A stretch of 32,801 nucleotides of DNA from Bdellovibrio sp. (lineage in GTDB: Bacteria; Myxococcota; SpSt-1050): positions 1 through 32,801 of the forward strand of contig DYEF01000002.1 of the NCBI GenBank assembly GCA_020725805.1, read 5' to 3'. Positions 15,900 to 28,268 of the stretch are shown piece after piece (position 1 is the first letter of the stretch; every line of letters starts with the position of its first letter). Both the position numbers and the translations under genes were made by a program. The notes under the pieces were generated by a model. The model was not told the origin of the DNA, did no database searches, and worked only from the letters and a program-made list of their open reading frames with translations.

Positions 15900-15931
15900 T
15901 TGGCTCCGACTATGTTAGGATTATGTATAAT
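15900..15931 (+). promoter_or_regulatory. Candidate -10 element of the Cys-rich lipoprotein gene
   Basis: A perfect TATAAT lies at 15926-15931. The best -35-like box (TTGGCT, 15900-15905) is 20 bases away, wider than ideal. The leader would be only about 13 bases, with GGAGG at 15939-15943 near its 5' end. Confidence 0.3.
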
Positions 15932-15950
15932 GTATTACGGAGGCTACATA

Positions 15951-18320
15951 ATGCAGAATAAAAAAATTACGTTTTTTGCCGGAATACTCCTTTTATTATC
16001 TCTTCTAATCTTATCCTGCTCAGTCGACATATCCGGTGCCCCCTGTTCAGGTAATGAAAACTGTCCCAGAGGACAGTACTGTGAAAACGGGAAGTGTGTA
16101 AGAGGTACACCGGGCGATACCGCAAATATTACCGATATTCTGTCCACAAAGGATGTGCTTCAGGATATCCCGGGGACAACAGACACGTCCCAGAATCCGG
16201 AGGATACCGAACAGATTACCGATACCTCCGTCATAAAATGCGTGAATGACAATGAATGTCTGAGTGATAAAGGGAAGTTTCTCTGTCTTAACAATATCTG
16301 TGTGCCCGGCGAGTGCCGTGAAAACGAAGACTGCAAGGTAGCCGGATTCCCGACCTGTGACGAGTCGCATTTCTGCTCTATGAAATGTGACAATGAGACA
16401 AAATGCGGAAACGGTTATGTCTGCTGTGATGGTCTTTGTAAAACAGGCACCTGCTGTGAAGACAAGGACTGCGGACCCAATATGAAATGCTTCAATAATA
16501 TCTGCACCAAAGAGTGCGAAAAGAATGAGGAATGTGAAAGCAACAAGTGCTGTGATAAGAGCATATGCGCCGAGAAAGAGAGGGGATGCTGTAATAATAC
16601 CGAGTGTGAAAGTTCCAAATACGGATTCAGCTGCATAAACTATCTGTGCTCCTGTACATCAGATTACGAGTGTCCGGAAGGGATGATATGCGATAAGAGC
16701 CTGTCGCCCCCTCTCTGCAAGACAGGCTGCAGCGATATTCACAGATGCAAACCGGGAGAGATATGCTGCAACGGAGTATGTAAAAAAGGATACTGCTGCA
16801 CATCCGAAGACTGCACAAAACCGGGATATCCGCTCTGCAAGGAAGTAAACGGAGAGAATATTTGTACCGATATATGCCAGCCCCTTTCACAGAACCCCTG
16901 CAAATCCCCTGACAACAAGTACAGGTGCTGTCTTCAGGGTGACAACCTGTACAGATGCGTTATAGCGAACTGCTGCTCAAATGATGACTGCAAGCTCCCT
17001 GACAAACCCTATTGTGAAAAGGGACTCGAGACACCGGACTGTGTAAACATATGCAAGCCGGAGAACGGAATCAAGTGTGGATTCGGATATGTCTGCTGCT
17101 ACGCGTTCAACGGATATATGTGTTTTGCCGGTGACTGCTGCGAAACCAAGGATTGCAATGACAATAAAAAATGTATAGGTCATCACTGTGTCGAGGAAGA
17201 TTGTAAGAGCGAACCTTCCATTTGCGGAACAGGTGAGAAATGCTGTCCCTCAGGGCAACTCGAAGGAGTATGCTATAAAGGTGAGTGTTGTGATGATGTG
17301 GAGTGCAGCACTAATTCAAACGGCTTTAAGTGTCTCCTTGACAGTTTCAAATGCGGCTGCACAACAAAATCGGACTGCAAGGCCGGATATGTCTGCAAAA
17401 ACAATGTATGTGTTTTCGGAGATTGTGTAACTGACGCGGACTGCAAGGATGAGGCAAAACCTGTCTGCATAAACAACAAGTGCTCACCCTGTCAGGATGG
17501 TTATCAGTGTAAAAATGCCCAGAAAGGAGATATCTGCTGCTCGGGTTATTGTAAATACGGAAACTGCTGTTCATCGCTCCCTGACTGTCAGAACCTGATT
17601 ACCAAACCCGTATGCAGGGAAGGATACTGCAGCCCCTGCGGAAGCAGTGCAGAATGTTCTTCACAGAATCTGGGAGACAAGTGCTGCACAAGGGGAGTAC
17701 TTGCAGGAGACTGCTATTCGGGAACCTGCTGCTCCTCATACGACTGTCTTGAGGCAGGAAGTATTACAAAACCCATCTGCCATACAACTGATTACAGTTG
17801 CTATCCCTGCGCCTCCGATACCGAGTGTATAAATGAGTTCAAGGATACAGGGCTCAAATGCTGTGCCGTCAAAAATTCCCCTGTATCAGGCTCCTGTTAC
17901 AAAGGTGAATGTTGTGATGATACGCAGTGTAAAACATATCAGAGCCGGCCAAAATGTGACCTCAAAACAAATATGTGTGTAGAGTGTCTCACCAACACTG
18001 ACTGCGGAATCATCGGTATAGGTTATATCTGTTGCAACAACCAGTGTGTTAGAGGAGAGTGCTGCAGCAATGCGGATTGCACGTCCCAGAACAGAGGAAA
18101 CTACTGCTATCAATATCACTGCCGTACTCACTGTGCAAAACCCCAGGATTGTTCCTTATCTCCGGATGGCAGTTATTGCTGTACAAATATAACGACGTCT
18201 CCCTTCCCGTTCTGCATCAAGGACCAGAGCGGAAAATGCTGCAAATCCGATAATGACTGCGGCGCTCTTGATAAATGCTGTTTCGGCATCTGCGAACCCA
18301 AAGCCGCTGTCTGTTATTAA
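15951..18320 (+). CDS. Secreted cysteine-rich repeat lipoprotein
   Basis: A 789-residue predicted lipoprotein. Residues 1-22 form a signal peptide ending in the lipobox ILSC with lipid-carrying C23. GGAGG stands before the ATG at 15951, which is preferred over an ATG at 15900. I count about 137 cysteines, near 17% of residues. An Asp/Thr-rich linker with few cysteines (about 55-95) separates an N-terminal Cys group from a long array of degenerate modules. Each module often has a CC pair, a short GxC segment, a second CC and a CxxxxDC or similar spacing (for example CCNGVCKKGYCCTSEDC). This resembles disulfide-rich repeats in myxobacterial surface proteins. It is probably on the outer membrane surface; its partner is unknown. 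It ends convergently on the next gene, the two stop codons sharing TTAA. Confidence 0.85.
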   Translation: MQNKKITFFAGILLLLSLLILSCSVDISGAPCSGNENCPRGQYCENGKCVRGTPGDTANITDILSTKDVLQDIPGTTDTSQNPEDTEQITDTSVIKCVNDNECLSDKGKFLCLNNICVPGECRENEDCKVAGFPTCDESHFCSMKCDNETKCGNGYVCCDGLCKTGTCCEDKDCGPNMKCFNNICTKECEKNEECESNKCCDKSICAEKERGCCNNTECESSKYGFSCINYLCSCTSDYECPEGMICDKSLSPPLCKTGCSDIHRCKPGEICCNGVCKKGYCCTSEDCTKPGYPLCKEVNGENICTDICQPLSQNPCKSPDNKYRCCLQGDNLYRCVIANCCSNDDCKLPDKPYCEKGLETPDCVNICKPENGIKCGFGYVCCYAFNGYMCFAGDCCETKDCNDNKKCIGHHCVEEDCKSEPSICGTGEKCCPSGQLEGVCYKGECCDDVECSTNSNGFKCLLDSFKCGCTTKSDCKAGYVCKNNVCVFGDCVTDADCKDEAKPVCINNKCSPCQDGYQCKNAQKGDICCSGYCKYGNCCSSLPDCQNLITKPVCREGYCSPCGSSAECSSQNLGDKCCTRGVLAGDCYSGTCCSSYDCLEAGSITKPICHTTDYSCYPCASDTECINEFKDTGLKCCAVKNSPVSGSCYKGECCDDTQCKTYQSRPKCDLKTNMCVECLTNTDCGIIGIGYICCNNQCVRGECCSNADCTSQNRGNYCYQYHCRTHCAKPQDCSLSPDGSYCCTNITTSPFPFCIKDQSGKCCKSDNDCGALDKCCFGICEPKAAVCY

Positions 18321-20821: not shown

Positions 20822-22522
20822 TTAATAAACGAGCGAGCAGGCACACCCGGAGGATTCCTCCGGATTATCTGTTGATACATCTTCGTTCAGAGTTATACCA
20901 TCAGGTCTTTTCCCGGTATCAGGGACAGAAATATCGCTAATATTTCCATTGTCGGTCAACGCAGTATCATCTCCGGAATAGTAATCAGCAACATCATCAC
21001 CTGCATCAGGAATATTACTTCCGCCATCATCAGTGACAACTATTGCATCATCTGTCTTCGGACCGTCATCAGATAAAAGAATATCTTCATTAGTGGCATC
21101 ACCGGAACCCGCATCCGGCTGAGGGGGAACGTATTCATAGGCACCGAGGTCTACGGCATTTCCCTGAGGTCGTTTGACCTTATCTTTGTCGTAAAGCGGA
21201 GCAAACTCAGACTCTCCGGAATCAATGGCCGGACTATCGGGCGTCAGGTGCAGGTCAAATCCCGCATAATTTACAAAATACTTCTCTGCCCAGACAGAAT
21301 CTATCTTGAGGTTGTGGTCGCTGATTGTCTCGCTCCCTACCTGCAGACTTGTCGTTATATTATTTCTTACAATGCAGCCCTCCGATGGTCTCCCGTCCTT
21401 ATGGGGATTTATCCTTATCCATGGCGGGCCGGGACTCTCGGTGTTGATATCCACGACAGTATTGTTAATTATTCTTACGTTCTTTGCCCCGTAAAACGAA
21501 ATCCCGTGCCAGTGGTCGGTGATGATAACATTGTTCTCGACAACCCAGTCTGTATAGAATCCGTCGAAACAGCCGATACCCTGTAATGTCCCCCTGAACG
21601 GCTGATTCGGGTCAGTATAATTGATTATCATATTTCCACGCAGGATTACCCCTTTGACCTCACCGGTTCCCACCTGTCCGTCTGTACCGACTGACCAGGA
21701 CTGAAACCCGTCGTCGTGATTCTGGTTTACAGCATAGCAGTTCATTACAAGGTTATCCTCAAACAGTCCGTAATCCCCGAGACCGCGCAGCCCGTCTCCC
21801 GCAAAATTCTCCACTGTATTCCCTATTACCTTTGCATTCTTACCACTTACACTAATACCAAAATTTACATTCTTGAGATAATTATTTTTTACCTCACAGT
21901 TATCTGCCTGAACGGATATACCGGAGCAGGAGAGATTATTCCAGTCGTCCTGTGTCCACTGCGAGGTATCTTTTACAGAGAATATCTCCGAACCTTCGAT
22001 GACCGAATCCGTACAGGGTCCTCTGAAGTTGTGATTCTCAAAGACCACAAGGGTTGAGACCTTCTCATAGGGCTCTGCAAAAGAGGGGCTTATATAAAGA
22101 CCTCTTAATACCCATTTAGAGGCCCCGAGACACCTGATATTCTTTATCCGGGGTTTATGTCCCGGCGCCGCCTCTACAATAACAGGGTCATTCTGATAAA
22201 GGTCCTGTATCGTTATCGAGCCGTGATAACCATTCATAAGAAGCAGTCTGTCTCCGCCTTTAATTGGCGCGTCCGGATTCTTCAATACCTTATTACAGTC
22301 AGGCTTATAAGGCAGAGTCTCACACTGATATCCGCTGATCAGTTTCTTTTCAATTACCTCTTGAAGTGACGGGAGCGGATTGACGATACTGCCATCGCCG
22401 TCTATCTTCCCGTTAACCGGGTCGAGATAGAAGTCCTTCGAGTGCAAATCCGGAAGAGAGAACAGGAAGAAAAAAGACAAAAAAGCAATGAAACAGACCG
22501 CTTTGCGATTACTTTTTACCAT
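20822..22522 (-). CDS. Secreted parallel beta-helix protein with choice-of-anchor Q-like domain and Cys tail
   Basis: A 566-residue exported protein. The signal peptide is about 1-28 (long Phe/Leu core) and a right-handed parallel beta-helix fills about 60-400 (repeated N-N-x-I/V turns such as VIGNTVENF and IINNTVVDI). Near 430-465, DLHLTPDSPAIDSG and NAVDLGAYEY resemble the choice-of-anchor Q domain, which elsewhere precedes various sorting signals. An Asp/Ser/Thr-rich linker (about 468-557) then leads to the final GCACSLVY (C560, C562). The start has GGAGGG upstream. The fold often binds or cuts polysaccharides, but no catalytic site is evident. It is probably surface-bound. The tail is almost the same as in the next protein. 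Confidence 0.85.
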   Translation of the reverse strand: MVKSNRKAVCFIAFLSFFFLFSLPDLHSKDFYLDPVNGKIDGDGSIVNPLPSLQEVIEKKLISGYQCETLPYKPDCNKVLKNPDAPIKGGDRLLLMNGYHGSITIQDLYQNDPVIVEAAPGHKPRIKNIRCLGASKWVLRGLYISPSFAEPYEKVSTLVVFENHNFRGPCTDSVIEGSEIFSVKDTSQWTQDDWNNLSCSGISVQADNCEVKNNYLKNVNFGISVSGKNAKVIGNTVENFAGDGLRGLGDYGLFEDNLVMNCYAVNQNHDDGFQSWSVGTDGQVGTGEVKGVILRGNMIINYTDPNQPFRGTLQGIGCFDGFYTDWVVENNVIITDHWHGISFYGAKNVRIINNTVVDINTESPGPPWIRINPHKDGRPSEGCIVRNNITTSLQVGSETISDHNLKIDSVWAEKYFVNYAGFDLHLTPDSPAIDSGESEFAPLYDKDKVKRPQGNAVDLGAYEYVPPQPDAGSGDATNEDILLSDDGPKTDDAIVVTDDGGSNIPDAGDDVADYYSGDDTALTDNGNISDISVPDTGKRPDGITLNEDVSTDNPEESSGCACSLVY

Positions 22523-22550
22523 TTTTATACCCTCCGAAAAATATGATAAA

Positions 22551-22572
22551 GGAAGGGTTTTCTCACCCTTCC
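22551..22572 (-). terminator. Hairpin between the VWA and beta-helix genes
   Basis: On the minus strand GGAAGGG and CCCTTCC pair around an 8-base loop, followed by TTTATC. The U-tract is short, so it is a weak terminator that may only lower expression of the beta-helix gene. Confidence 0.5.
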
Positions 22573-22605
22573 GTTACCATCAAAAACAGTCTTATAAGTT
22601 CAGGC

Positions 22606-25305
22606 TCAGAACAATGCCGAACAGGAACAACCGGAAGAATCTTCACTACCAGACCCGTCATCCACATCCTTTCCGCCTACACTACCGGAATCATCAGAAG
22701 AAGCCGTATCCGGCTTCGATGAGGTATCAGAGAGAGAGGTATCTTTTGCCGCATCGGCGATTCCGGCATCCCTGTCCGAATCCGTGAACACATCCGTATA
22801 TCCCGAATCGTAAGCCGTATCAGAACCCGTATCGGAACCTGCGTCAGTAATTTCTCCGCTGACACACTGGCCGTTGACACACCTCTCTGCCTCAAACGGG
22901 CATTTGATATTGTTGCAGGGGTCTTCCACGCACTTGTTGTCGACACAGATAAATCCCTTATCGCACTTGATTTCATCGCACTCATTTTCTATACACTTAC
23001 CTTCCTGTGAACAGATTTCTCCCTCTTTGCATTCTTCAAACGCGCAGGGGTCATCAACGCATTCTCCGTAAACACATTTTTTACCAATTTCACAGGAAAC
23101 CCTTGCACAGCTTCTCTCACATTTTCCGTCAACACAGAATTCTGCATTCTGTTTGTTGCAGGTCACATTCTTACACGGGTCATCAATACACTGATAATTC
23201 TCACAGATCTTCCCTTCTTCACAGGGAATCTCGTAGCAGTTATCCGGCAGACACTCGCCGTGCCAGCACCTGTAATTATTTTGACACTTTACATCCTTAC
23301 ACTTATCTACGCAGACTCCGGCGATACAGTCCTCTTCAGGTTTGCAAACCTTCCCCTTGCAGGGCTCGACACAATAACCGTTGACACAGTCATATCCCTT
23401 CGGGCATTCACCGGCCTGACAGGGAGCCACACACTCTCCCTCGAAGCAGTACTTTCCGGGCGGACAGGGTGCATTATCATCGGTAACACCGTTACAGTTC
23501 TCATCCTTTCCGTTGCATATCTCTTCGGGCTCCGGACCACAGCCACCGCAGTTGTTGAGGACACCATTGTCAATCTCTCCGTCACAGTCATTGTCAAGTC
23601 CGTCGCAGACCTCCGTAACGGCCGTCTTGTCGGGGTCACACACAAGTTTCGCATTTGCCGAATCACACCTTGTATGACCTTTGGAGCACTCTCCCTTCAG
23701 GCCCGTTGCACAGACCTTTCCTCCTCCCGGATTATTATCGTCGGCCACTCCGTTACAATCGTTATCCAGACCATCACATATCTCGACCGAGGGCTGATTC
23801 TTCTGCAGACACTTCAGTTCACCTCCGATACAGGTTACCACGCCTTCTGCACAGACTCCCTTCTTCCCGGTATCACAGGCCGCGCCTCCACCCGGATTAT
23901 TCTCATCCACCTCTCCGTTACAGTTGTTGTCCTTATTATCACAGATTTCATACGGCAGAGGTTCATTAACCCTGACACAGGTAAGGATATCGTTGACACA
24001 CTTCATTCTTCCCTCTGCGCATATCCCCTTCTCTCCGGTATTGCACGGGGCATTCGTATCAATACAGCAGGGCTGCGCATCACACTTGCTCCATACACCA
24101 TTGACGCAGCTCTGCTTCCCTTCATGACCACAGAAGTTGGTGCAATCCCTGTCGGGTATGTTATTGTCAATCTTGCCATCACAGTCGTTGTCGAATCCGT
24201 CACAGATTTCGGTCGAGGGCTGCTTAATCTGAACACAGGTGAGTACATCATCCACACACTGCATCTTACCCTCAGCACATACTCCCGGTTTCCCGGTGTT
24301 GCAGGGTTCATAGGTTGGTGTGCAACAGGGGGCAGCACTGCACTTTGTCCAGTTCCCATAGACACAGGTCTGTGTCCCCTGATTTCCGCAGGTGTTTGTA
24401 CAGACCTTGGGAGCAATTCCGTTGTCAATCTGTCCGTCGCAGTTGTCATCTAGCAGGTTACACTCCTCATTCTTCGGAAAGTTTACCTGAACACAGGTGA
24501 GTTTGCCGTTGACACACTTCATCTTCCCTATCCCGCAAACACCCTGAAGACCTGTATTACAGGTATCATTAGTATCCACACAGCAGGATGTAGGAGCCGT
24601 ACAGTTCTTCCATTGCCCGTTTACACAGGACTCATAACCCGAGCCGCAGTCAGTATAACAGACCCTCTTCGTGGCAAGAGTAACGATTATATCGAGCGCT
24701 GCCTGAAGCTGCTGCTGATTATCTGCCTGATAATAGTTCCCCGTCCCTCCTGCATTTGCCATATTGTTGAGGGTATTCGCATCTACACCGCTTCCGAAAC
24801 CGATTACAAAGACCTTAACACCTGATGCATAGAGTGCACCCGCCGCCTTTATCGAGTAATTGATTGCGTCGGTATCGCAGTTTGGCTGACCGTCGGTAAT
24901 CAGAATTACAAAATTCAGCCTTGCAGGGTCGTGAATGCCGCTATACTGATTTACTGCCACAAGTGTCCTGCCCGTGGGGGTATTGCTGTCGGGAGAGACA
25001 CTGTTTATCTTGTTCATAATTGCCGTGGCAGTATTGTCTGCACAACCTACGTCGATTATACCGGCCGCACAGTTATTATCGGATGCGAAGAGAGAGAGTC
25101 CCCACCTCGCCTGAGAACCGTATGTGTTCATCAGGTATTGGATGGCTGCCTTTGCCTGTGTCCACTTAGTTCCCGCCATCGAGCCTGATTTGTCGAGTAC
25201 GAGCAGGATATTCGGATTACTGCACTCCTGAGTATAGGCCGGCTGGCTCATCAGACAAAAAGCCGTTATCACCGAAAAAGCCAGAAATATCTTAAAAGGT
25301 TTCAT
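22606..25305 (-). CDS. Secreted VWA protein with MopE-type and Cys-rich repeats and Cys tail
   Basis: An 899-residue protein. A signal peptide (about 1-25) is followed by a von Willebrand A domain (about 30-205) with the MIDAS D38-x-S40-x-S42 (DKSGSM), a Thr in TPTGRT and TDGQPNCD. Next are about six MopE-like metal-binding repeats, pattern ICDGxDNDCDGxIDN, up to about residue 590. Nine or so short Cys modules (CxxxxCxxGxxCxxGxC type) reach about 815. A Ser/Asp/Thr linker and the end GCSCSALF (C893, C895) close the protein. MopE repeats bind Ca2+ or other metals in related proteins. It probably works on the cell surface in adhesion. AAGGAGG precedes the ATG, 14 bp after the NHL gene. Confidence 0.88.
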   Translation of the reverse strand: MKPFKIFLAFSVITAFCLMSQPAYTQECSNPNILLVLDKSGSMAGTKWTQAKAAIQYLMNTYGSQARWGLSLFASDNNCAAGIIDVGCADNTATAIMNKINSVSPDSNTPTGRTLVAVNQYSGIHDPARLNFVILITDGQPNCDTDAINYSIKAAGALYASGVKVFVIGFGSGVDANTLNNMANAGGTGNYYQADNQQQLQAALDIIVTLATKRVCYTDCGSGYESCVNGQWKNCTAPTSCCVDTNDTCNTGLQGVCGIGKMKCVNGKLTCVQVNFPKNEECNLLDDNCDGQIDNGIAPKVCTNTCGNQGTQTCVYGNWTKCSAAPCCTPTYEPCNTGKPGVCAEGKMQCVDDVLTCVQIKQPSTEICDGFDNDCDGKIDNNIPDRDCTNFCGHEGKQSCVNGVWSKCDAQPCCIDTNAPCNTGEKGICAEGRMKCVNDILTCVRVNEPLPYEICDNKDNNCNGEVDENNPGGGAACDTGKKGVCAEGVVTCIGGELKCLQKNQPSVEICDGLDNDCNGVADDNNPGGGKVCATGLKGECSKGHTRCDSANAKLVCDPDKTAVTEVCDGLDNDCDGEIDNGVLNNCGGCGPEPEEICNGKDENCNGVTDDNAPCPPGKYCFEGECVAPCQAGECPKGYDCVNGYCVEPCKGKVCKPEEDCIAGVCVDKCKDVKCQNNYRCWHGECLPDNCYEIPCEEGKICENYQCIDDPCKNVTCNKQNAEFCVDGKCERSCARVSCEIGKKCVYGECVDDPCAFEECKEGEICSQEGKCIENECDEIKCDKGFICVDNKCVEDPCNNIKCPFEAERCVNGQCVSGEITDAGSDTGSDTAYDSGYTDVFTDSDRDAGIADAAKDTSLSDTSSKPDTASSDDSGSVGGKDVDDGSGSEDSSGCSCSALF

Positions 25306-25319
25306 AGTAAACCTCCTTC

Positions 25320-27236
25320 TTACTGTTCAAGGTCCAAAAGTCTGATTCTGTGATTCTGGGAATCGGCCACAAGGATATTCTTCCCGTCAGGGGCAATAAA
25401 GAGATGCATAGGTGTATTGAACTTCGTCAGATATCCCTGCCCGTCTGCAAATCCATAAGTATTGGTCCCGGCGAATGTATATACCTGTCCGCCCACAATG
25501 ACACGGATATTGTAGTTCTGAGTATCGGAAATATACAGAAGCTCTGTGGCACCACTCTTGAAATAAGTTATGCCTGAGGGTGAATTGAACTGGGCGGCAG
25601 AGGTAGCAGCACCGTCCTTATATCCCGCAGTACCCGTCCCCGCAAAGTTGGTAACATTCGCATTCGATATCTGTATCCGTTTAATCTTGTTGTTGTTGGT
25701 ATCGCAGACATATAGGTAAGTGCCTGCCGAATCCGCTGCAATCGCCGTAGGTCTGTTGAACTTTGCAGCGGTCCCTGCTCCATCTGCATCTCCCTGTGTA
25801 GAGCCGGCAAAAGTCGTCACAGCAAAATTACCCGACAACTCGATTCTTCTTATTTTGTGATTTCCGGCATCAGCTACATAGAGATAATTCCCGACCTTGA
25901 CAACTCCCATCGGCTGGAAGAATGTCGCAGAGGAACCTGTATTGTTATCTGCACTGCCTACCGCGCCTGTTCCGGCCACCAGAGTGGTCGTACCTGCTGC
26001 ATCAGCTCTTCTGATTCTGTTGTTGCCGGTATCTGCAAAATAGAGGTATGAACCGTCCCAGAAGAGTCCCGTCGGGGCAGCAAGCTGGGCAGCCGTCGTT
26101 GCACCCTCTGCATATCCATAGGCACCGCTTCCGATAATCAGTGTGTTCTTACCTGTCGGATCGACCTTCTTGATACGGTTGCTGCCGGTATCTGCCACAT
26201 AGGCATTAAGACTATTGTCAATCACAAATACACCGGACGGAGACTTAAACTGAGCCGGTTGTCCGATTGTAGCGCCGTCTCCCCAAGAAGAGCCCGCAAA
26301 TGTCGAAACCATCGGGTACAGATATACCTTTGCATCGGCATACTTCGTATTGTCTGCCTGAGAGGTGGCCCTGACTGTTGCCACGACCTTGTCTGTGATC
26401 TTATCCGGTGCGGTATAAGTCCCGGAGGCATTTACCGAACCATAGTTTGCACCCTCTACAACCGAGTAGGTGACATTTGTGTTGCTCGTATTGTAAACGC
26501 TTGCGGAGAAGAGCTTTGTCTCCTTAAGGGCAAGCTTTGCCTCTGTGGGAGATATGGATACCTGAATCGGCGGGGCAATTACCACCTGCGCACCGCCTGA
26601 TTTTGTCGGGTCGGCCTTCGAGGTGGCAAGTACCGAGATTATATTCGGATTCGGCACGTTCGCCGGTGCCGTATAGAGGCCGGTCTGCGAAATCGTTCCG
26701 TTTGCCGCACCACCGTATACCGACCAGGTAACTCCCTGATCACTCGTGTTCTTGACAGTTGCAGTAAACTGCTGCGTCTTCGTTACGTTGACATAGACGA
26801 AGTTGGGAGAGACCTCGACCTCGATCGGTTTTGCAACAGTAACAGTTGCAGTATCGGAGGCAGAGGTATCGAAGTTGGATGTAACCTTCACTGTGACATT
26901 TGCAGGGTTCGGAACCGTGTCGGGTGCAGTATAATAACCGTCCTGTTCAATAATCCCGTTCTGATTTCCGCCTATAACCTCCCATTTTACCGACGGGTCT
27001 TCGTCGGCATTCTCGACGGTTACACTGAACTTGAAGGACGTTCCCGCATTGACGGTTTTTGTCTTGGGAGATATTGTCACACTTACAGGCGGGACAATCA
27101 AAACAGGTGCTATTCCGAAGGCGGAATTGTCTTCGACGCTCGTCGCCCTTATCACTATCTGTGCCGGATTAGGAACGTTCTGGGGAGCAGTGTATAAACC
27201 GGTATTGCTTACGGTTCCGAGTGAACCGTCACCGGG
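25320..27236 (-). pseudogene. 3' part of frameshifted Ig-like/NHL lipoprotein gene
   Basis: This is the downstream part of the gene that starts at 28215. Similarity to the repeat pattern resumes at about 27236 in a new frame (PGDGSLGTVSNTGLYTAP). An open frame continues upstream to 27320, but that stretch is the wrong frame of the same Ig-like repeat and has no family features. The part holds the end of Ig-like repeat 3, repeats 4 to 6 (each with GxYTAP-x-VPNP and a final VTV/VLI strand), and six NHL repeats forming a beta-propeller (ADTGNNRIRR, ADAGNHKIRR, CDTNNNKIKR and similar). It has no signal peptide of its own. If the frameshift is a sequence error, this and the upstream part are one protein of about 965 residues. 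Confidence 0.85.
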
Positions 27237-28215
27237 GGTCTTTCTCGATCGACCAGATAACGGCATTCGTCTGATGAGCATTCTTGACAAGTGCCGTAAA
27301 CTGCTTCGTCTTACCAACATTTATTATCGCCGATGAGGGCAGAATGTTCACCTCTATCGGGAGTGCCACTGTCACTACCGCCGTATCGTATTTGGAATTG
27401 TCGACAGCACTCGTTGCCCTGATCTGAACCTCTTCGGGATTCGGAACATCGGGAGGCGCCGTATAGAAACCGGTATTGTCAATCGTACCGTTCTGTGCAC
27501 CGCCAAGGACTTCCCATATAACCGTCGTATCGTTGGTATTTTCGACGAGCGCAGAAAACTGCTGGGTCATATTGTTATGCACAATGGCCGTCTTCGGGGA
27601 GACCGTAACCTTTATTGCAGGGAGAATAAAGACAGAGGCATCGGCATAGACCGAATTATCCTCGACACATCTGACCCTGACTGTAATGTTCGGATTTGCC
27701 GGCTGTTCGGGCGGTGCCTTATACAGACCTGAACTGCTGATAGTTCCGTAGGAGCCGTCACCCGGGTCACCGACTATCTCGAACGTTACATCTGTGGTTA
27801 CCTTCGAATTGAAAACAGTTGCCTCAAACTTCTGCTGACCGACATTTGCCTGAAGAGTTACGCTCTCGGGAGTTATCTCCACATAAAGCTGGTCTACAAC
27901 TGCATCCTTTGAGACATCCGTCCCGCCATCGGTATAATCCGTATCCGGAACCTCCCCGTCAGGTTCTGTACCATCCGGTATCTCCCCGTCTTTATAGACA
28001 TCACTCCCGTCAGTATCCTTCGAAGCATCCTTCGATGCATCGGTCACATCCGTAATGACATCCTTTATTATGACATCAGAGAGTTTTACATCCTTTCCTG
28101 AAGAGCTGTCCTCATACGGGTCACCTCCTCCGGAAGAAGGAGAATCACTGCAGGCCGAGAACAGCATCAGACCTGTCGATAGAATAATTGTCAGATTACA
28201 TAACCCTCTTCTCAT
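27229..28215 (-). CDS. 5' part of frameshifted Ig-like/NHL lipoprotein gene
   Basis: 328 residues from the ATG at 28215, with GGAGG 7 bases upstream. The signal peptide ends with the lipobox LFSAC (C22). A Ser/Asp/Lys-rich linker (about 23-105) includes many SDV, DAS and DGE pieces. Two full Ig-like repeats and the beginning of a third follow. The frame ends in SIEKDPR then TGA at 27229-27231. In repeat 1 the same place reads GDPGDGSYGT, so the natural continuation is in the other frame. The product is probably an outer-membrane lipoprotein; beta-propeller NHL domains often bind proteins or sugars. It is first in an operon with the VWA and beta-helix genes. Confidence 0.85.
   Translation of the reverse strand: MRRGLCNLTIILSTGLMLFSACSDSPSSGGGDPYEDSSSGKDVKLSDVIIKDVITDVTDASKDASKDTDGSDVYKDGEIPDGTEPDGEVPDTDYTDGGTDVSKDAVVDQLYVEITPESVTLQANVGQQKFEATVFNSKVTTDVTFEIVGDPGDGSYGTISSSGLYKAPPEQPANPNITVRVRCVEDNSVYADASVFILPAIKVTVSPKTAIVHNNMTQQFSALVENTNDTTVIWEVLGGAQNGTIDNTGFYTAPPDVPNPEEVQIRATSAVDNSKYDTAVVTVALPIEVNILPSSAIINVGKTKQFTALVKNAHQTNAVIWSIEKDPR
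27234..27238 (-). other. Probable +1 frameshift site in a C5 run
   Basis: The minus strand reads GACCCCCGGTGACGG. With four C instead of five, the frame gives D-P-G-D-G, exactly as in Ig-like repeat 1 (DPGDGS). Everything before and after is intact. It may be a sequencing error, a recent mutation, or a phase-variable run. Confidence 0.8.
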
Positions 28216-28239
28216 AAGGAAACCTCCCTTACAAATATC

Positions 28240-28268
28240 ATTATACAAAAACGAAATATCAAAATCAA
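28240..28268 (-). promoter_or_regulatory. Strong promoter of the surface-protein operon
   Basis: Minus strand TTGATT (28263-28268), a 17-base spacer, then a perfect TATAAT (28240-28245). The leader would be about 18 bases and contains AGGGAGG. It would drive the Ig/NHL lipoprotein, VWA and beta-helix genes. Confidence 0.75.

Follow-up and report, generated by a model that had tools for sequence, protein, structure and literature searches.

Two adjacent genes encode exported proteins that differ greatly in fold but share almost the same last eight residues, which raises the question of whether these ends are a C-terminal sorting signal and, if so, of which kind. The genes lie in the window analysed here, a stretch of 32,801 nucleotides on contig C20 of the host genome G000, from an uncultured relative of the myxobacteria (3.29 Mb in 115 contigs, 97.9% complete, GTDB phylum Myxococcota). 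An earlier note on this DNA, written without database searches, had suggested a short, helix-free, Cys-based signal. We followed up this suggestion across the host genome, its only congener found (G001, so that the genus is represented by two genomes) and further Myxococcota.

Tagged proteins in the window and in the genus

The first gene (20822..22522, reverse strand) encodes an exported right-handed beta-helix protein of 566 amino acids. Its N-terminal signal peptide (22439..22522, reverse strand) has a hydrophobic core score of 2.7, the extent being judged by eye. The choice-of-anchor Q-like domain seen by the earlier note was recovered at residues 423-464 by NF041518 with 44.5 bits, against a cut-off of 25. 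Between this domain and the tag the translation runs through an Asp/Ser/Gly-rich linker (20849..21127, reverse strand), and the tag GCACSLVY (20825..20848, reverse strand) ends directly at the stop codon (20822-20824). The second gene (22606..25305, reverse strand) encodes an exported protein of 899 amino acids with a VWA domain (PF00092, 69.7 bits) and MopE-type metal-binding repeats (PF11617, 79.6 bits). Here the signal peptide (25231..25305, reverse strand; core score 2.5, extent by eye) lies at the N-terminus, and an Asp/Ser-rich linker (22633..22854, reverse strand), again read from the translation, precedes the tag GCSCSALF (22609..22632, reverse strand; stop codon 22606-22608). Both tags are assigned from the sequence and from the genome-wide pattern described below. 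The near-identical tails, SSGCACSLVY and SSGCSCSALF at their stops, were confirmed in the sequence, and no hydrophobic stretch was found downstream of either stop codon; the earlier note had seen no hidden helix after the VWA stop.

The window holds N-terminal lipoproteins as well as tagged proteins. At 25320-28248 (reverse strand) lies a large lipoprotein with the lipobox LFSAC and Ig-like and NHL-type repeats, without a C-terminal tag. It is split into two overlapping frames near 27229-27320, and the repeat pattern continues across the break (KDP / GDGSLGTVSNTGLYTAP), which suggests an assembly frameshift or a real lesion. The other lipoprotein (15900-18320, forward strand; 806 amino acids, lipobox LILSC) is very Cys-rich and ends in FGICEPKAAVCY, likewise without the tag.

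Over the whole host genome, the pattern GC-x-C-[S/T..]-3 residues-stop gave 35 matches compared to 3 for a reversed-pattern control, and about 0.16 tagged ends are expected for 3000 proteins of the same composition; on these figures chance was rejected. With the pattern relaxed to GCxC, four residues and a stop, and with mild filtering of the residue that separates the cysteines, reading of the ORFs gave at least 45 ends in the host and at least 29 in the congener whose second Cys lies exactly four residues before the stop; the proteome-wide count is a lower bound. Thus, the search for such tails in the proteome and in relatives, which the earlier note had proposed, found many in both genomes. 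Among 77 tails examined, 74 have this spacing of four residues. Length variants with three (L096) and five (L097) residues after the Cys occur once each in the host, and the congener has a tagged protein (L257:10397-11443) that ends in GCSCTTLSID, six residues after the second Cys. All 44 carriers with a complete 5′ end in the host possess a hydrophobic, signal-peptide-like N-terminal core, as do 24 of 26 in the congener, where the remaining two fall only slightly below the threshold. The short, helix-free, Cys-based signal of exported proteins is therefore supported genome-wide. Cargo domains of the tagged set comprise GH25, purple acid phosphatase, kelch, papain, matrixin, thermolysin, subtilisin and GH123, and many of these proteins are Cys-rich. 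Three tagged orthologue pairs apparently also have an N-terminal lipobox (L172, L208 and L209 in the host; L224, L249 and L236 in the congener), with FIKGC, CLSAC and VASC as examples; to judge from these motifs, such proteins could be lipidated at both ends.

Since the search imposed only the G, the two Cys, the length and the mild filter between the cysteines, all other positions were free to vary. They nevertheless follow the consensus G-C-[S/G]-C-[S/N/A/T]-Φ-Φ-[E/D/N/Y/F]-stop, preceded by an Asp/Ser-rich linker (D/S/E-rich over the whole tagged set). Position -2 is L, I or V in 42 of 45 tails of the host and in 29 of 29 of the congener, position -3 is mostly L, F, I, V or Y, and position -1 is E, D or N in 28/45 and 20/29, respectively (in the host Glu 17, Phe 7, Asp 6, Asn 5 and Tyr 5). 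Ser prevails in the host at positions -9 (28/45), -6 (28, with Gly 13) and -4 (30). From the two proteins of the window, a Ser behind the second Cys and aromatic or hydrophobic end residues had been proposed in addition to GCxC: the core was confirmed, whereas Ser is only one of several residues behind the Cys, and most tails end in an acidic residue or Asn, not in an aromatic one. In 27 reciprocal-best pairs between the two genomes (mean identity 68%), chosen for bearing the tag in both species, G, C and C are kept in 27/27, identity is about 35-40% at linker positions -11 to -30, and the hydrophobic tag positions swap among hydrophobic residues. On this preselected set, the tag looks like a motif under purifying selection.

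Technical origins of the short tail were considered. Stop codons of the tagged genes in the host are TGA (21), TAA (15) and TAG (10), and hidden helices were seen in 10 of 74 downstream stretches of 150 nt compared to 6.6 expected from shuffled sequences. A recoded stop or a frameshift that hides a helix is unlikely, because all three stop codons are used and downstream helices are without clear excess. Truncated contigs or assembly errors were rejected, as the tag is common to the 27 orthologue pairs with the second genome. In 195 Myxococcota genomes, the strict pattern gave 24 and 9 matches in host and congener and at most 6 per genome elsewhere, and no convincing match outside the genus was found. 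We therefore rejected a short tag widespread in Myxococcota; the other matches are few per genome and mostly end in TGG (Trp) codons, which the pattern admitted.

Relation of the tag to MYXO-CTERM

Orthologues of the beta-helix protein end in a canonical MYXO-CTERM signal (GCxC, membrane helix, Arg cluster), located at the same place as the tag and after the same kind of linker; an example of such an end is AGGCSCGSVSGPGAFLIFLSALGLAIVRRKNRNHG. These orthologues were found in Myxococcales bacterium A3 099 (G030, L041/L166) and Deltaproteobacterium B64_G9 (G044, L042/L167) (59% identity) and in G026 (L168; about 50%). Distant homologues of other tagged cargo also end in MYXO-CTERM (L133, L035, L124 and L126), and one more (L158) has GGCATTG plus a helix. 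The order-mate G002 shows the canonical GCGC, helix and RRRR end (NGCGCASVGAGDDAGLLALLAVLGAALAALRRRR). With TIGR03901, the model of this signal, no match was obtained in the host or the congener, compared to matches in 30 of 39 genomes searched. Myxosortase-family genes are present in six TIGR03901-negative genomes as well (G003, G012, G028, G032, G035 and G037; below cut-off in G028 and G032), which may have further variant signals. In G003, G012 and G046, which were covered by one relaxed pattern scan, the background was too noisy for tails to be read.

Because TIGR03901 matches are absent from both genomes, the strict tag is confined to the genus among the 195 Myxococcota genomes and homologues carry MYXO-CTERM, a short signal appears to have taken the place of a helix-bearing one throughout the substrates of the genus. 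As signs of chance or truncation, the earlier note had named the lack of other exported proteins with such an end and homologues that continue into a membrane helix. The former was not observed; the latter was, in other genera. However, the convergent consensus (C-x-Φ-Φ-E/D/N), the fixed length and the retention in 27 orthologue pairs disfavour both explanations, and the tag is not a plain truncation, since a new consensus is seen behind the Cys. The same note had set the tail apart from MYXO-CTERM. The helix is indeed absent, but in the orthologues MYXO-CTERM occupies the place of the tail and a myxosortase-family protease is present, which argues for a derived MYXO-CTERM and not for an unrelated signal. 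That the tag is a helix-less descendant of MYXO-CTERM is well supported by these sequence comparisons.

Candidate machinery and mechanism

The co-occurrence of a myxosortase, to be looked for according to the earlier note, was found: each of the two genomes encodes one protein above the Mrt_core cut-off of 100 bits (NF040914), with 117.9 bits in the host and 109.6 bits in the congener. In the host it is the one PF02517 protein (218 amino acids, L113:6714-7370, reverse strand; C2:42.7-43.0 kb), and the single orthologue in the congener is 59% identical with conserved neighbours. The host protease exceeds the cut-off of the MrtJ model (78.7 bits, cut-off 75) and stays below that of MrtS (83.4, cut-off 130) and those of the equivalogs MrtX (83.3/180), MrtC (135.7/195) and MrtP (160/250 bits), so that homology does not settle its substrate. 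The catalytic residues E127, E128, R132, H167, H203 and N207 are retained in the motifs EExxxR and HxxxN. A sequence search of the PDB with the protease gave no match; for its AF2 model (pLDDT 94.4), Rce1 (4cad) was the top PDB match in Foldseek, with a probability of 1.00 and a TM of 0.52, although the E-value is only 0.05. The genus alone differs at fourteen otherwise conserved columns, including W204 (next to the catalytic H203), L202, R193 and I/Y188, which fits what would be expected if substrate recognition had changed. No obvious partner was found among the genes that adjoin the protease gene, which are ispDF and a TPR gene in both genomes. It is convergent to the ispDF fusion gene of the isoprenoid pathway (L113:5556-7370 and L229:3874-5686), a neighbourhood that is conserved, though probably a coincidence. 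Protease gene and tagged genes are not neighbours; they are linked by co-occurrence within one genus (two genomes), from which we infer the pairing of enzyme and tag.

Components for lipidation and secretion are encoded as well. A GspD secretin of the type II secretion system was detected in the host with 588 bits, and both genomes of the genus carry a tandem lspA-lgt-lgt. The two Lgt paralogues (314 and about 265 amino acids) are ancient and about 31% identical to each other, and the divergent copy is a candidate for the acyltransferase of MYXO-CTERM proteins. The order ileS-lspA-lgt-lgt is conserved in tagged and helix-bearing Myxococcota (L256:6626-8923, L257:2459-4822 and L258 of G002). 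As a marker of the tag the lgt duplication was rejected, because relatives with helix-bearing signals (G002 and G030) have it too; by this distribution of the genes, the pair is older than the tag.

In Myxococcus xanthus, TraA is cut by MrtX in a Cys-dependent manner, and the scheme for this organism proposes lipidation of the Cys, names Lgt as the foremost acyltransferase candidate and has the product exported by the T2SS (PMC11980579). We transferred this scheme to the genus, with a tetrapeptide in place of the helix. The tagged proteins would be exported via Sec by their N-terminal signal peptide, and at the outer face of the inner membrane a lipid would then be attached to one Cys of G-C-x-C-x-Φ-Φ-X-COOH, with either of the tandem Lgt paralogues as a possible catalyst. 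The single Rce1-like CPBP myxosortase would cleave behind the lipidated Cys and release a short peptide instead of a membrane helix, before the T2SS would carry the product out for anchoring in the outer membrane. The release of a short peptide is also what Rce1 performs on CaaX proteins. To the reading that the genus has rebuilt MYXO-CTERM into a short CaaX-like box, with a lipidated Cys, a tetrapeptide trimmed by the myxosortase and a protein anchored at the surface, we assign a probability of about 0.65. Its main difficulty is access to the membrane: the myxosortase substrate known so far has its helix as a membrane anchor, whereas a soluble tetrapeptide tail on a periplasmic protein has no obvious route to an intramembrane protease or to Lgt. 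Targeting without a helix would need either lipidation first, as in CaaX proteins, or help of the signal peptide before its removal. On the statement that the whole detectable set of MYXO-CTERM substrates (at least 45 proteins) was converted to the helix-free box and the myxosortase adapted to a tail that is short and soluble, we are evenly divided.

The absence of a helix to cut, the position of the protease below the equivalog cut-offs of MrtX, MrtC and MrtP and the substitutions near its active site (W204, L202, R193, I/Y188) could also mean that a genuine tag of MYXO-CTERM descent is served by another enzyme. This might be, for instance, a transferase by which the C-terminal Cys is attached, with no cleavage at all, to a lipid or a partner on the surface. 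The retained myxosortase would in this case act on other substrates or on none. We consider both this enzyme and this fate of the myxosortase rather unlikely: both genomes hold a single, intact copy of the protease and no remaining helix-bearing TIGR03901 substrate for it, an altered active-site environment fits an altered substrate equally well, and the constant length of four residues behind the Cys points to a C-terminal recognition peptide that can be removed.

Two further explanations do without a sorting signal. The C-terminal CxC might be a thiol, disulfide (intermolecular, to a surface scaffold) or metal-binding motif, in agreement with the two Cys, with the many Cys-rich cargo proteins and with the fact that a lipid on the Cys is only proposed; this is improbable, as the conserved Φ-Φ-[E/D/N], its fixed distance from the C-terminus and the positional equivalence with MYXO-CTERM would be left unexplained. 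Still more improbable is that MYXO-CTERM anchoring was lost through early stops and that the GCxC stubs are neutral leftovers of proteins that are now released. Helix-bearing homologues and the lack of anything behind the stubs are in line with such a decay, but dozens of stops fall at the same codon distance with a common new consensus, G, C and C persist in 27/27 orthologue pairs amid diverged linkers, and one intact myxosortase is retained in both genomes.

Cys core and protease persist in the genus, while all substrates found have lost the helix. Should the pathway still be functional, it can do without the helix, and targeting must be the task of the Cys modification, a point that bears on whether, and by which enzyme, the Cys of MYXO-CTERM is lipidated before cleavage. 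If the substrates were indeed converted to a CaaX-like box, the system would be an extracytoplasmic, prokaryotic counterpart to the CaaX processing of eukaryotes; lipidation would have to come before the protease and by itself recruit the substrate to it. The tag is also a minimal, eight-residue candidate for surface display, and the genus offers a natural experiment in the specificity change of an Rce1-fold protease.

Comparison with known systems

To our knowledge, the known sortase-like systems (sortase, exosortase, rhombosortase and myxosortase) act on a tripartite tail with a membrane helix. The same is stated, for the systems that it lists, in a publication that calls MYXO-CTERM universal in Myxococcota (PMC11980579). 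The literature searched, a set without Haft's 2024 myxosortase paper, yielded no account of a helix-less form.

The closest match is MYXO-CTERM (TIGR03901) with MrtX of M. xanthus. Shared are a GCxC behind a disordered acidic linker at the C-terminus of proteins with a signal peptide, dozens of carriers per genome, the same position in homologues, and the presence of a myxosortase-family CPBP protease together with a T2SS. Cargo is alike, too (hydrolases, adhesins, VWA/MopE), and the tagged set resembles the extracellular enzymes and adhesins reported for MYXO-CTERM proteins. We do not file the tag as MYXO-CTERM, because the defining helix and Arg cluster are both absent; moreover, it has no TIGR03901 match, ends in the fixed tetrapeptide C-x-Φ-Φ-[E/D/N/Y/F]-COOH and occurs with a protease outside the equivalog cut-offs of MrtX, MrtC and MrtP.

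Synerg-CTERM/MrtS also couples a CPBP protease to a signal at the C-terminus whose Cys is invariant. JDVT-CTERM and Synerg-CTERM signals keep the helix and the basic end, whereas the entire substrate set found here lacks both. For JDVT-CTERM, the pairing of the CPBP protease MrtJ with a signal containing an invariant Cys is described in PMC11980579. GlyGly-CTERM/rhombosortase and PEP-CTERM/exosortase resemble the tag in the many-to-one C-terminal sorting of exported proteins, but differ by tripartite tails with a helix and by enzymes outside the CPBP family. With the eukaryotic CaaX box and Rce1, the tag has in common a short soluble box of a Cys, aliphatic residues and a variable last residue, as well as a protease of CPBP/Rce1 fold. 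In contrast to CaaX, where exactly three residues follow the modified Cys, four residues follow the second Cys in nearly all tails here (C-x-Φ-Φ-X) and GCx precedes it, and the carriers are extracytoplasmic proteins with signal peptides, for which prenylation is not expected.
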